From Candidatus Sulfotelmatobacter sp. (lineage in GTDB: Bacteria; Acidobacteriota; Terriglobia; Terriglobales; Acidobacteriaceae): 33,250 nucleotides of DNA. Location of the stretch: the NCBI GenBank assembly GCA_030040965.1, contig JASHOT010000034.1, positions 1 to 33,250 of the forward strand, written 5' to 3'. Numbering within the stretch: the stretch's first letter is position 1; every line of letters begins with the position of its first letter. The notes beneath the pieces are model-generated. The model was not told the origin of the DNA and ran no database searches. It saw only the letters and a list, made by a program, of their open reading frames with translations. Shown piece by piece: positions 28,320 through 32,034 of this stretch. The position numbers and the translations under genes are program-made.

Positions 28320-29182
28320 TGGACGCTCCGCCCAAGATGCGTCGTCGCCCTAACAAGGGCATGTACGTCTTGCCCTCGCTGTTCACCACGGCAAACATGG
28401 CGTTGGGCTTCTACGCGATTCTGGAATGCATCCACGCCACGACCGCCGAGTACGTGCATCTCGACGATGCAGCCGTTGCCATCGGCTTCGCCATACTTTT
28501 TGATGGGCTCGATGGCCGTATCGCGCGCATGACCAACACCACCAGCGACTTCGGCCGCGAACTTGATTCTCTCGCCGACGCCATCACGTTCGGTGTCGCG
28601 CCAGCCCTGCTGGCGTGGACCTGGGGTTTCTACCTGATGCCGCCGATGATGCTTAGCGACTGGCATAATAACTGGCACATCAAGCTGACCCAGCTGGGCG
28701 CAATCGCCAGTTTTCTGTTCCTGATCGCCGGAGCGAGCCGTCTGGCGCGCTTCAACATTACGGTCAATCCGCAACCGTCGAATCCCGGACGACCGGGCAA
28801 GAAGTATTTTGTCGGCATGCCGATTCCCGCCGGCGCCGGCGTAATCGCCGCCGTAGTTCACTTCGCCGCCGGCGAACCGCTGGTCTCCTGGTATACCGCG
28901 CTGACTTGGCTCGCCATGGTGACCATGGTTGGTTATCTGATGGTCAGCACGTGGCGGTTCTACAGCTTCAAGGACATCGATTTCCGCACGCGCCGGCCGT
29001 TTCGCCTCATCGTATTTCTCGCTCTGTTGTTCGCCTCGATCGCGTTGTTCTCGCGCCAGGTTCTCTTTGCGGTCGCACTTCTCTACATGGTTTCGGGCGT
29101 CTTCTGGCGCTTGCAGTGGATCTTCCGCCGGCGAAGCGATCCGCCTCCACCGCCTTACAAGGAGGCATCGCAGACTTCATGA
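28319..29182 (+). CDS. pssA: CDP-diacylglycerol-serine O-phosphatidyltransferase
   Basis: About 287-residue integral membrane CDP-alcohol phosphotransferase making phosphatidylserine, the substrate of Psd encoded just upstream. The complete family signature is present: D62-x2-D65-G-x2-A69-R70-x8-G79-x3-D83-x3-D87 (from FDGLDGRIAR to DSLAD). Multiple membrane helices follow. I prefer the ATG at 28319 (MDAPPK) over TTG 28316. The stop overlaps the next gene's ATG (ATGA at 29179-29182). Confidence 0.95.
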   Translation: MDAPPKMRRRPNKGMYVLPSLFTTANMALGFYAILECIHATTAEYVHLDDAAVAIGFAILFDGLDGRIARMTNTTSDFGRELDSLADAITFGVAPALLAWTWGFYLMPPMMLSDWHNNWHIKLTQLGAIASFLFLIAGASRLARFNITVNPQPSNPGRPGKKYFVGMPIPAGAGVIAAVVHFAAGEPLVSWYTALTWLAMVTMVGYLMVSTWRFYSFKDIDFRTRRPFRLIVFLALLFASIALFSRQVLFAVALLYMVSGVFWRLQWIFRRRSDPPPPPYKEASQTS

Positions 29183-30255
29183 GCGAATCGGAAAAATCCG
29201 CAGTGGCTGCGCTTCCTGTCGCTCCGCGCGGCAAGCTCTATCGAGCCGCGATCGTCGGAGCAGCGTCGCTCAAGGGCAAGGAAATTGCCGAAATGTTGAA
29301 CGAGCGCAATTTCCCGGCTGCCGATGTTCGCCTGCTCGATGACGACGAATCCCTCGGCCAGCTCGAGGCCATGGGTGACGAGATCAGTTTCATACAGAGC
29401 GTGCGGGCCGAGCAGTTTGAGCATGTCGACTTCACGTTTTTTGCCTCCGATCCCGACTGCACGCGCAAGAACTGGAAGCGCGCGCGCGATGCCGGCAGTA
29501 CGATTGTCGACGTTTCTTCCGCCCTCGAAGAGGAAGCTGGTGCCAGCGTGCGCTCGCCCTGGGTGGAGCGGGAGCGATCGCAGATTGTCGCTCCCGACCT
29601 GCAGCCCGGCCCGTGCGTGACCGCGCATCCCGTGGCAATCTCCCTTGCGTTGCTCCTGCTGCGCGCCAAAAAAGCTGCGGCGATTCGTCGCGTCACGGCG
29701 ACGGTCTTCGAGCCGGCCTCCGAGCACGGTCAGCTCGGTATGGACGAACTGCACCAGCAGACCGTGAACCTGCTTTCGTTTCAGCCGCTGCCCAAAGAGG
29801 TTTTCGACGCGCAGGTGGCTTTCAATATGGTCGCACGCTACGGCCCGCGATCGCAGCCCGCTCTCGATTCGGTGGAAGGCCGCATCCTGCGCCACTATCG
29901 CAAGATTGCGGGCGATAACGCTCCGCTGCCCTCGCTTTTTCTGCTGCAGGCGCCGGTTTTTCACGGGCACGCCCTGGCCGTGCTGCTCGAATTCGAGCAG
30001 GCAATGGACGCAGCCACACTCGCGCAAGCGCTTACGGGCGATCACGTCTCGATTCCCGCAGCCGGCGAGGAGCCACCGAGCAATGTAAGTTCCGCCGGCC
30101 AACCAAACATTCTCATTTCCATCAAACCTGATCCCGTTCAGCCAAACAGTTTCTGGCTATGGACCGCGGCCGATAATCTCCGCATCTCCGCCTTTACCGC
30201 CGTCGAATGCGCGGAGAGCCTGACCGCTATTCGCCCGACGGGGAAAATTCAATGA
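29179..30255 (+). CDS. Aspartate-semialdehyde-dehydrogenase-like protein lacking the catalytic Cys
   Basis: 358 residues from the ATG at 29179 (MSESEK), overlapping the pssA stop by ATGA. An open frame back to 28906 is only pssA shadow. The N-terminal NAD(P)-binding domain has AAIVGAASLKGKEIAEML, then DFTFFASDPDCTRKNW and STIVDVSSALEE. The dimerisation domain has ATVFEPASEHGQLGMDEL and LLQAPVFHGHALAVLLEF. In true Asd the active-site segment reads NPNCST or similar. Here the equivalent segment is A149-H150-P151-V152-A153-I-S, so the nucleophile Cys appears to be Ala. A Cys lies seven residues earlier (C146). This resembles USG-1-type Asd homologues. Its role in a lipid/LPS operon is unknown. 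Confidence 0.82.
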   Translation: MSESEKSAVAALPVAPRGKLYRAAIVGAASLKGKEIAEMLNERNFPAADVRLLDDDESLGQLEAMGDEISFIQSVRAEQFEHVDFTFFASDPDCTRKNWKRARDAGSTIVDVSSALEEEAGASVRSPWVERERSQIVAPDLQPGPCVTAHPVAISLALLLLRAKKAAAIRRVTATVFEPASEHGQLGMDELHQQTVNLLSFQPLPKEVFDAQVAFNMVARYGPRSQPALDSVEGRILRHYRKIAGDNAPLPSLFLLQAPVFHGHALAVLLEFEQAMDAATLAQALTGDHVSIPAAGEEPPSNVSSAGQPNILISIKPDPVQPNSFWLWTAADNLRISAFTAVECAESLTAIRPTGKIQ

Positions 30256-30836
30256 GAGTACCGAGTACCGTGCACAGAATACCGAGTCGTCGTGGTTTGT
30301 TCTCGTTACTCGGTACACGCTACTCGGTACTGGTCCTGGCGCCGGTCCTGCTTCTGTTTGGAACCGCCTGCGGCTACCACACCGTCGGCCACGCCAGCCA
30401 GCTTCCGGAAAACGTCAGGACCGTCGCCATCCCCGCTTTCAAGAACGAAACCATGACGTATCGCATCGAGCAGATGCTGACGGCTTCCGTGGTCCGCGAG
30501 TTTACTACTCGCACTCACTACCACATTCTGAACGTCACCGGTGAAGACGCCGACGCCACTCTGCGCGGTACTGTTCTTTCTACCTCGCTCTCTCCGCTCA
30601 CCTATGACACCAACACCGGACGCGCTGCCAGCGTTCTCGTAGTTGTCAGCATGAAGGTTTCTCTGACCGATCGCGTGGGCAAAGTGCTCTATCAGAATCC
30701 GTCGTATCTTTTTCGCGAGCAATATGAGGTTTCGCAGGATCTGGCCAGCTTCTTCGAAGAGGACTCACCGGCCTTCCGCCGCCTGTCGCAGGACTTCGCC
30801 CGTACGCTGGTCGCCAACATCCTGGAGGGGTTCTGA
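30252..30836 (+). CDS. lptE: LPS-assembly lipoprotein LptE
   Basis: 194-residue outer-membrane lipoprotein of the LptE family, the plug partner of LptD for inserting LPS into the outer membrane. The signal peptide ends in the lipobox FGTAC, with C40 followed by GYHTVGHASQLPENVRTVAIPAFKN. Further family features are RIEQMLTASVVREFTTR, VTGEDADATLRGTV and REQYEVSQDLASFFEEDS. The ATG at 30252 overlaps the preceding stop (ATGA). Codons 2-29, the n-region and part of the hydrophobic core, are encoded by inverted heptamer repeats (30256-30332), so the signal peptide appears built from repeat DNA. In-frame GTG 30270 and later TTG codons could serve as alternative starts. Confidence 0.88.
   Translation: MRVPSTVHRIPSRRGLFSLLGTRYSVLVLAPVLLLFGTACGYHTVGHASQLPENVRTVAIPAFKNETMTYRIEQMLTASVVREFTTRTHYHILNVTGEDADATLRGTVLSTSLSPLTYDTNTGRAASVLVVVSMKVSLTDRVGKVLYQNPSYLFREQYEVSQDLASFFEEDSPAFRRLSQDFARTLVANILEGF
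30256..30332 (+). repeat. Inverted heptamer array (GAGTACC / GGTACTC units) inside lptE signal-peptide codons
   Basis: The left side is GAGTACC twice (30256-30269), then the variant GAATACC (30278-30284). The right side has four variants of the complementary heptamer GGTACTC in a row (30305-30332: GTTACTC, GGTACAC, GCTACTC, GGTACTG). GTACCGAGTA (30258-30267) is a perfect reverse complement of TACTCGGTAC at both 30307-30316 and 30321-30330. Confidence 0.8.
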
Positions 30837-30848
30837 GTGCTAAAGTAA

Positions 30849-30900
30849 GTCGTTGGTCGTTAGTCGCTGGTCGTTGGCCAAAGACCAAGGACTAACGACC
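30849..30900. repeat. Inverted heptamer array (GTCGTTR units) forming a 46-bp palindrome between lptE and holA
   Basis: Four head-to-tail heptamers GTCGTTG, GTCGTTA, GTCGCTG, GTCGTTG (30849-30876) are followed by three complementary ones, CAAAGAC, CAAGGAC, TAACGAC (30879-30899). Positions 30855-30877 pair with 30878-30900 at 20 of 23 positions, centred on TTGGCCAA. Confidence 0.85.
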
Positions 30901-30909
30901 GGTTTCTCC

Positions 30910-32034
30910 ATGCGCGCCTTTGCCCAAGCCGAGCGCTTCGTCAGCGATCTGGAGTCGCGCAAGCTGCGCCCCGCCTACGTTTTCGTGGGTGACGAAGCAT
31001 TTTTCCGCAAACGCTTTCGCGATGCCATTCTGGAACATCTCGTGCCCGCCGATCTGCGCGAGTTCAGCTTGTTTGAATTCGATCTGGCCGAAACCGACCT
31101 CGCCGAAGTTCTCGACCGCGCCCGCACTCCCTCGCTGATGGCGCCGTTTCAGGTGTTTTTCGTGCGCGGCGTGAGAAATCTCTACGGCCGCGGATCGAAC
31201 GAAGAAAAACTCGCTGCCATCGAGGAGTACTGCAACAATCACAATCCCGACGCGCTGATCGTCTTCGTCGCCAACCACATCAGCATTCCCGCCGACGTGC
31301 GCAAAATGGAGATGCAGGACCGGGACCGTTATCAGCGCATTCGCGATACTTTGGGCCAGTACTGCGGCATCGTCCAACTGGCGCGCGTGGAAGAGGGCGA
31401 AGCGGTTCGCTGGATTTCCGACTATTGTTCGGGCCGCGCGGTGAAGATCGAACCGGACGGCGCGCGCGAACTGGTCGACGCGCTCGGTGGCGACATGATG
31501 ATGATTTCGAACGAACTCGAAAAGCTCATCCTCTACGTCGGCGAGAAAAAACGCATCACGCTCGGTGATGTCGAGACCATGGTGCTCGCCGCCAAGCAGC
31601 GATCCCTCTACGAACTCACCGACGCGATCTCGAGTAAAGACCGCGTTCGCGCACTCGAAATCCTCGACGCGATTCTGGCCTCCGGCGACGGCGAAGAGGC
31701 CGCCATCGGCCACGTTTACATGCTGGCCAAAACATTCCGCCAGATGCTGGTGATCCTCGAGCGCAACGTGCGCGATCAGCGCATGCTCTGGGCAGCGTTG
31801 TGGCAGGGATTCCGCGTGCCTCCGTTTGCCGCCGACGACATCATCAAGCAGGCGCGCCGCTACAAAAACCGCCGCGAACTCACACGCGCCATCCGGCTGG
31901 TGGCCAAGGCCGATCTCGCCCTGCGCTCCAATCCGGTCAGCAAGCGACTGGTGCTCGAGCGGTTGGTGATGGACCTCACCGCCGAATCCAAGCTCGAAAC
32001 TCCCGGCTGGATGCAGGATCAGCTGCCGGTGTAG
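30910..32034 (+). CDS. holA: DNA polymerase III delta subunit
   Basis: 374-residue clamp-loader subunit that opens the sliding clamp. Recognised by the N-terminal LRPAYVFVGDEAFFRKRFRDAIL, FLAETDLAEVLDRARTPSLM-type start of domain I, VFFVRGVRN and DALIVFVAN. The middle region has ARELVDALGGDMMMISNELEKLILYVG. The C-terminal domain has LYELTDAISSKDRVRALEILDAIL, then GHVYMLAKTFRQMLVI. The frame is open back to 30853, but that part is the heptamer palindrome. I take ATG 30910 (MRAFAQAERF), which has no clear Shine-Dalgarno; the palindrome ends 10 bp before it. It follows lptE on the same strand. Confidence 0.9.
   Translation: MRAFAQAERFVSDLESRKLRPAYVFVGDEAFFRKRFRDAILEHLVPADLREFSLFEFDLAETDLAEVLDRARTPSLMAPFQVFFVRGVRNLYGRGSNEEKLAAIEEYCNNHNPDALIVFVANHISIPADVRKMEMQDRDRYQRIRDTLGQYCGIVQLARVEEGEAVRWISDYCSGRAVKIEPDGARELVDALGGDMMMISNELEKLILYVGEKKRITLGDVETMVLAAKQRSLYELTDAISSKDRVRALEILDAILASGDGEEAAIGHVYMLAKTFRQMLVILERNVRDQRMLWAALWQGFRVPPFAADDIIKQARRYKNRRELTRAIRLVAKADLALRSNPVSKRLVLERLVMDLTAESKLETPGWMQDQLPV

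Follow-up and report, generated by a model that had tools for sequence, protein, structure and literature searches.

Directly behind the start codon of lptE, the gene for an LPS-assembly lipoprotein, a Candidatus Sulfotelmatobacter genome carries two opposed arrays of heptamers that can fold as a hairpin. What kind of sequence is this, and how did it come to lie where a signal peptide is encoded? The locus was analyzed in a stretch of 33,250 bases (the window), taken from an assembly of 5.87 Mb in 437 contigs, and in relatives identified by contig search, mainly Candidatus Sulfotelmatobacter and other Acidobacteriota MAGs. A sequence-only reading of the same DNA had proposed a possible contingency (phase-variable) site or a translation-control hairpin, an interpretation that is partly supported by the analysis below.

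Anatomy of the lptE hairpin

The features of the locus are collected in Table 1. The heptamer hairpin described in the sequence-only reading is real and lies inside the open frame of lptE. The left array is read as GAGTACC, GAGTACC, GTGCACA, GAATACC and GAG, and the right array as CTCGTTA, CTCGGTA, CACGCTA, CTCGGTA and CT. The array is thus confirmed as such, but it spans codons 2–27 instead of the proposed 2–29, and exact units amount to only two per arm. Positions 30257–30286 and 30302–30331 form an inverted repeat in which 25/30 bases (83%) are complementary across a 15-nt loop. It is the sole inverted repeat in the window with at least 25/30 complementary bases and a loop of 3–59 nt, and no comparable structure arose when the whole window was shuffled 12 times with dinucleotide content preserved.

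Through the overlap ATGA, the lptE start codon shares bases with the stop codon (TGA) of the semialdehyde dehydrogenase-family gene before it, for which every NCBIfam match falls below cut-off; an ATGA or GTGA overlap is found at the lptE start in the window and in the relatives inspected. As RNA, the lptE region has a predicted folding energy of −37.5 kcal/mol (z −1.70), which is only modestly unusual, as 15/200 shuffles fold equally well. A second hairpin, built from a different heptamer, occupies the gap between lptE and holA, and none of 200 shuffles folds as well as this one. The holA start was placed at an ATG, in a frame open from a TTG at 30853. No Rfam 15 family matched the window at the gathering threshold.

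Table 1. Coordinates of genes and repeat features at the lptE locus in the window.
Feature	Position	Strand	Basis
Semialdehyde dehydrogenase-family gene (aspartate-semialdehyde dehydrogenase-like), upstream of lptE	29176..30255	+	PF02774/PF01118
lptE (LPS-assembly lipoprotein)	30252..30836	+	PF04390, E 2.7e-14; ATG at 30252; lipobox Cys at codon 40
Left (5') arm, ~4.6 GAGTACC-type heptamers	30256..30287		TRF period 7, 4.6 copies; inverted repeat
Loop between arms, with in-frame TTG at 30297	30287..30301		Inverted repeat; start-codon scan
Right (3') arm, ~4.3 GGTACTC-type heptamers (TRF phase CTCGGTA)	30302..30331		TRF period 7, 4.3 copies; inverted repeat
Second heptamer hairpin, GTCGTTG/CAACGAC type, lptE-holA gap	30853..30902		Fold z −3.80; TRF 30848-30877
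holA (DNA polymerase III delta subunit)	30910..32034	+	TIGR01128, 205.7 bits (cut-off 80); ORF

Translation through the array

In the window, 39 residues precede the lipobox Cys (by eye). A scan of the open frame ahead of this residue found only two start codons besides the ATG, a GTG (codon 7) and a TTG (codon 16). These two lie within the element and none lies between it and the lipobox Cys; the rescue by downstream in-frame GTG or TTG codons suggested earlier is not supported. Judged from the frame, at least the right arm is coding in the window, and most likely the whole array, with translation apparently beginning at the ATG. At a related locus, L018, the element also lies inside lptE; the sole start codon of the open frame there is a GTG that precedes the array, with none after it. 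At L033 and L063, TTG or GTG codons are present after the array, so translation could begin further down there. In none of the six reading frames do the units GAGTACC and GTCGTTG give a stop codon; because 50.4% of all heptamers are likewise stop-free on both strands, this is weak evidence, which permits translation rather than proving it.

The lptE locus in relatives

A total of 111 lptE loci were compared, 82 of them with distinct upstream sequence, and an array was flagged where the period-7 score reached at least 14/21 within the 150 nt preceding the conserved region. Eight loci were flagged and 103/111 were not. The flagged loci are L004 and L089 (both the window's own locus), L018, L033, L063, L079, L090 and L118, of which L090 and L118 duplicate L018 and L033. 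By eye, L086 resembles them at a score below the threshold, and at L079 the array apparently precedes the gene rather than lying within it. Most of the 111 loci encode a short signal peptide straight after the start, e.g. MKARR...GC (by eye). The unit is GAGTACC in the window and L018, and GAGTCCN-like in L033.

A tree of three proteins groups the window with L033, L018 and L039 with moderate support (82/70, 65/78). Within this group, L018 and L039 are sisters (support 100/100), and the array is present in L018 and absent from L039; since only one of the two carries it, gain or loss in this pair was recent. The lptE-holA gap follows a similar pattern among the 76 loci inspected by eye: several species have GTCGTTG-type hairpins, L039 has another unit, and in other relatives the gap is array-free and about 44–50 nt long. 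The alignment of the asd/lptE junction is too poor to place an insertion, and neither a target duplication nor an exact empty site was demonstrated there. Relatives differ by the presence, absence or replacement of the element (by eye) and not, as phase variation would have it, by the unit count at a shared array.

A dispersed family of heptamer arrays

The sequence-only reading proposed a search for further GGTACTC heptamer arrays in the genome, and further copies do occur. In the source genome, matches to the doubled GAGTACC unit (GAGTACCGAGTACC) number 105 at up to two mismatches against 53 in a reversed control, and 34 against 7 at up to one mismatch; given these copies, the lack of any others in the genome, named in that reading as grounds for abandoning it, does not hold.

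An excess of period 7 is also visible when the unit is disregarded. In 200 kb of genome G014, 44 period-7 regions were counted, against 2–6 for periods 4, 5, 8, 10, 11 and 13 and 5–18 for periods 6, 9, 12 and 15. In 80 lptE loci the count is 27, against 0–4 for periods 5, 8, 10, 11 and 13, 3–10 for periods 6, 9, 12 and 21, and 12 for period 14. In a 188 kb sample of the source genome, made up of contigs drawn from the GAGTACCGAGTACC-match listing, the excess is slight, with 8 regions against 0–4 (periods 4, 5, 8, 10, 11 and 13) and 9–14 (periods 6, 9, 12 and 15).

A census of unit patterns in 61 genomes, 37 from the genus (Sulfotelmatobacter-like) and 24 from outside it, detected CAGCTNT-type matches in 37/37 genus genomes versus 9/24 outside, GTCGTTN-type matches in 36/37 versus 1/24, and GAGTACC-type matches in 33/37 versus 5/24. 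Genus members differ greatly in their numbers of matches, some of them being barely above control. CAGCTNT arrays are abundant in G058 and G059 (52+68 and 158+145), two genomes that belong to other families of the class, which suggests independent expansions.

The arrays lie mainly between genes. Outside the set of S10 ribosomal-protein operons described below, 72/91 period-7 segments fall between genes, in DNA of which about 80% was called coding, and so do 13/13 paired hairpins; the gene calls behind these counts are crude, with genes missed or shortened (lptE, for example, was started at the loop TTG). The 13/13 count omits the lptE copy because the detector left it unpaired, its left arm missing among the listed segments; this copy is an exception to the intergenic rule.

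Some hairpins resemble one another beyond the repeated unit. Copies of the lptE hairpin over nearly its whole length occur in the same genome at C14:27894-27973 (75–76%), on C259 (74%) and on C208 (72–73%), and within G014 and within G028 hairpins match one another over arms and loop at 73–82% (in G014, overlapping stretches enter one locus twice). No recent identical copies were found in the part of the data examined; longer stretches are only ~72–82% alike, and hence no recent movement is seen.

Arrays in the gaps of the ribosomal-protein operon

Orthologous gaps could be compared across species in the S10/spc operon, stretches of which were obtained from 28/32 genus genomes and 12/20 outside genomes with an L2 match. 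Several of these contigs are short, that of the source genome having 3,519 bases, and the outside figures may be too low because the CAGCTNT-rich G059 is left out. Gaps have a median length of 80 nt in the 28 genus members against 15 nt in the 12 outside genomes, with some gap lengths made wrong by misplaced starts. Period-7 arrays are found in 201/565 genus gaps versus 6/300 outside gaps. Among other periods in the genus gaps, period 8 is found in 26/565 and periods 5, 6, 9, 10 and 11 in 1–3. Many of the period-8 gaps contain hairpins of 8-nt units, e.g. GTAATTNG, GTTTCAAN and GCGATTNG, which lie beside the 7-nt types in the rplN-rplX, rplR-rpsE and secY-adk gaps (L140, L141, L143, L144 and others). 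Arrays of differing types occupy many gaps of the operon, as in L128, L148 (the G014 operon) and L139-L178.

Ten unit types, three of them of 8 nt, were picked after viewing these same gaps, and a gap was typed if one arm fitted within 3 mismatches. Among gaps of 25–399 nt, at least one arm could be typed in 279/451 from the genus, compared with 5/451 after shuffling, a control that preserved base composition only, and 3/94 from outside. The typed genus gaps occur in 27/28 genomes.

The two arms of a gap usually share one unit. When the arms were typed independently from the two gap halves, both were typable in 165/417 gaps of 40–299 nt, and they were of one type in 130/165 (permuted mean 30.8, maximum 46 in 1000), or in 146/165 with the three AGCT types merged. 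Agreement reaches 40/40 when self-complementary types are absent from both arms (permuted mean 8.3, maximum 19), and 40/59 when only one arm or more has to be of a non-self-complementary type. Even with the AGCT types merged, 19/165 gaps have arms of different types. An origin in a single event explains neither these mixed-arm gaps nor the 40/59. The GAGTACC type was never found in both arms of an S10 gap; it was found in three gaps, all among the 19, each time with a partner arm of another type.

The type at a given gap changes between species: rplN-rplX carries three 8-nt types, and rplW-rplB carries GTCGTT or AGCT types. The rplW-rplB gaps of G002, G008, G022 and G001 are composite, their 5' arm being of the GTCGTT type and their 3' arm of the AGCT type, and look as if two elements had been fused by deletion. 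In some species, other dispersed palindromes stand in place of arrays at rplF-rplR and rplW-rplB (by eye), of the types GGCGTCATCC...GAAGGATCTC, TTCCTCACCGG...CCGGTTCGGAATGACA and TAGAGACGTAGCTTGCTACGTCTC. Separately, the G014 stretch contains an Acido-Lenti-1 RNA (Rfam RF01687, 48.9 bits) at L148:742-788 on the minus strand; for the arrays themselves no Rfam match was obtained.

Convergent orientation of the arms

The two arrays of a hairpin mostly converge. A set of 98 pairs was collected (97 distinct, 85 from S10 stretches); no opposite pairs occur in its three largest types (29, 21 and 11 pairs), TAGCTCT (6) has one, and there are single cases among minor types. In a separate count by the ten unit types, oriented pairs are convergent in 81/81 cases in seven types. 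The three remaining types have self-complementary cores, with 86 pairs one way and 17 the other (GAGTACC 2 and 2), and cannot decide orientation. By eye, among the matches listed, at least 9 close pairs in G000 and at least 14 in G059 run plus-then-minus.

Two apparent regularities of the unit were set aside. The idea that all 5'-arm units start with RGY is weak: 94/98 5' arms contain RGY, but so do 72/98 3' arms and 41% of random heptamers. The presence of one variable position per unit may partly reflect the selection rule, which admits up to two mismatches to the chosen unit.

Origin of the lptE array

The evidence above makes it probable that the lptE array belongs to a dispersed class of convergent-array hairpins, intercistronic by habit, and that this copy was absorbed into the signal peptide. 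A member of the class has two arrays in convergent orientation, with units of 7 nt (sometimes 8 nt), and can fold as a hairpin; the unit varies among copies and is usually common to both arms of one copy, and copies normally occupy intercistronic gaps. At lptE, the asd/lptE junction has no gap, the two genes overlapping at ATGA, and the element would have come to lie directly behind the ATG. Its presence in a signal peptide would be tolerated because GAGTACC is stop-free in six frames and the n-region of a lipoprotein accepts almost any sequence; selection on the array is presumably weak.

The strongest competitor, which we consider doubtful, is that the array grew in place, by slippage expansion of a 7-nt unit and inverted copying of one arm through template switching, without any dispersal. 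Slippage by heptamers is put forward in the literature as a property of polymerases (PMC4679880, PMC4692102), and the hairpin-free rplW-rplB gap of G005 and G025 has, by eye, a sequence like the 3' unit before the start. Against local growth, a small number of unit types keep returning in unrelated gaps and in many species, and at different loci of one genome some hairpins are alike in both arms and loop (about 73–82%). These observations suggest that the lptE array arrived as an element.

It is unlikely that the array is primarily a translation-control hairpin, in which a stem past the start codon limits initiation of lptE or couples it to the upstream gene. The predicted stem does begin a few nucleotides past the ATG, and in S10 gaps the 3' arm is often close to the next start (by eye). 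Moreover, array gaps fold better than shuffles, with a mean z of −3.33 and 87/179 below −3, against −1.78 and 39/191 for other genus gaps. However, the fold at lptE itself is unexceptional. Sequestration of the ribosome-binding site is also unsupported as a general role of the class: the pairing of the region before the start is only slightly higher in array gaps (0.62) than in other genus gaps (0.52) or outside (0.53), and a Shine-Dalgarno-like word is present in fewer array gaps (70/179) than other genus gaps (125/191) or outside gaps (31/41).

The contingency locus put forward by the sequence-only reading, in which gain or loss of heptamers would switch lptE on and off by frameshift, is very improbable. 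In its favor, a unit length of 7 is indivisible by 3, and the array lies within the first codons. Yet perfect period-7 repetition in the lptE array extends over at most 15 nt (about two units), and in the wider survey only 2/441 period-7 segments have perfect tracts of at least 28 nt; tracts so short offer slipped-strand gain or loss of units little to act on. Relatives, as described above, vary by presence and absence of the element. LptE is normally essential for LPS export, and an off state of the gene is therefore unlikely to be useful. Finally, that the array is ordinary lptE coding sequence, repetitive by chance, can practically be dismissed: the frame is open throughout, but shuffling the window produced nothing comparable, further arrays occur elsewhere in the genome, and the unflagged lptE loci mostly have a shorter signal peptide.

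Function and movement of the class

Returning to the dispersed hairpin element, our best guess is that the class forms stable RNA spacers between the cistrons of polycistronic mRNAs and is partly self-propagating (selfish). The proposal is made because the evidence favors such an element over a contingency array, and hiding of ribosome-binding sites is unsupported. More speculatively, the hairpins may be a distinct kind of element with a mechanism that swaps the unit in both arms jointly and keeps unit length and position, giving one ribosomal-operon gap different unit types in different species (as in rplN-rplX with its three 8-nt units); the hairpins would be selected as intercistronic RNA spacers and the lptE copy recruited as a signal peptide.

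A Y1 transposase was considered as a candidate mover. Matches to PF01797, present in 35/37 genus genomes and 17/24 others, do not clearly follow the abundance of arrays (by eye), and no match was found in the array-rich G022 and G008 (genomes 76% and 86% complete).

Relation to known repeats

Several classes of bacterial repeats share features with these arrays. The STRR heptamers of heterocystous cyanobacteria are 7-nt tandem units, largely intergenic. ERIC-type elements are dispersed palindromes found mainly outside genes. In Rickettsia, palindromic elements lie in frame within protein-coding genes. The lptE copy is likewise in frame; unlike the Rickettsia elements, the class described here is normally intercistronic and built of heptamers, and a coding copy is exceptional.

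On the published accounts available in part, the nearest known system is that of the convergent heptamer pairs of Xanthomonas. There, GGGAATC arrays are over-represented in intergenic regions, commonly have four units and contain degenerate positions (Rehm et al. 2015, PMC4692102); two species have 70 and 75 cases of close convergent array pairs, with shared positions and variable sequence (PMC4692102). Heptamer arrays, convergent pairs and intergenic preference are thus common to both systems. In contrast, the Xanthomonas arrays use one G-rich, quadruplex-prone unit as described there, whereas ten unit types, three of them of 8 nt, were used here, and the present arrays are frequent in the ribosomal-protein operon, with at least one copy within coding sequence.

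The TAACTGA arrays of Beggiatoaceae also have 7-nt tandem units and are largely intergenic, with mixtures of heptamers in some genomes (PMC4679880). The Guaymas Maribeggiatoa genome has 169 direct sets and one indirect repeat (PMC4679880). STRR and TAACTGA arrays, in the accounts available, are thus mainly direct, whereas those described here are convergent. In Geobacter metallireducens, families of four or five tandem heptamers are predicted regulatory elements, among them 49 elements with the consensus GGACCGG, located both inside genes and between them, and 15/16 class-3 sites of consensus MTYCTGA (PMC2700814). The binding-site classes are mostly paired, and the strand-switching layout of a legend may mean inverted pairs (PMC2700814). 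The units differ from ours, and the available portions of that paper make no mention of ribosomal-operon gaps (PMC2700814).

REP sequences, or GTAG- and CGTC-tagged palindromes, are dispersed and lie mainly outside genes, the GTAG class being linked to transposases (PMC3733652). The present hairpins are similarly dispersed palindromes, mainly outside genes; unlike those elements as described, their arms are internally periodic, and the PF01797 survey found no link to a tyrosine transposase. No description of such arrays in Acidobacteriota was found in the open-licence literature searched, including a limited word search of Hausmann 2018 (PMC6018796).

Implications

If the proposed reading is correct, a genus has filled many intercistronic gaps in the operon it conserves most with repeat hairpins that stay in place and keep their pairing as their sequence is replaced. 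The commonness of 7-nt repeats in bacteria would then become testable through orthologous gaps in dozens of species, where presence, absence and replacement can be followed at fixed places. The lptE case would be one in which such an element has been turned into protein, at a point where the coding sequence is tolerant.
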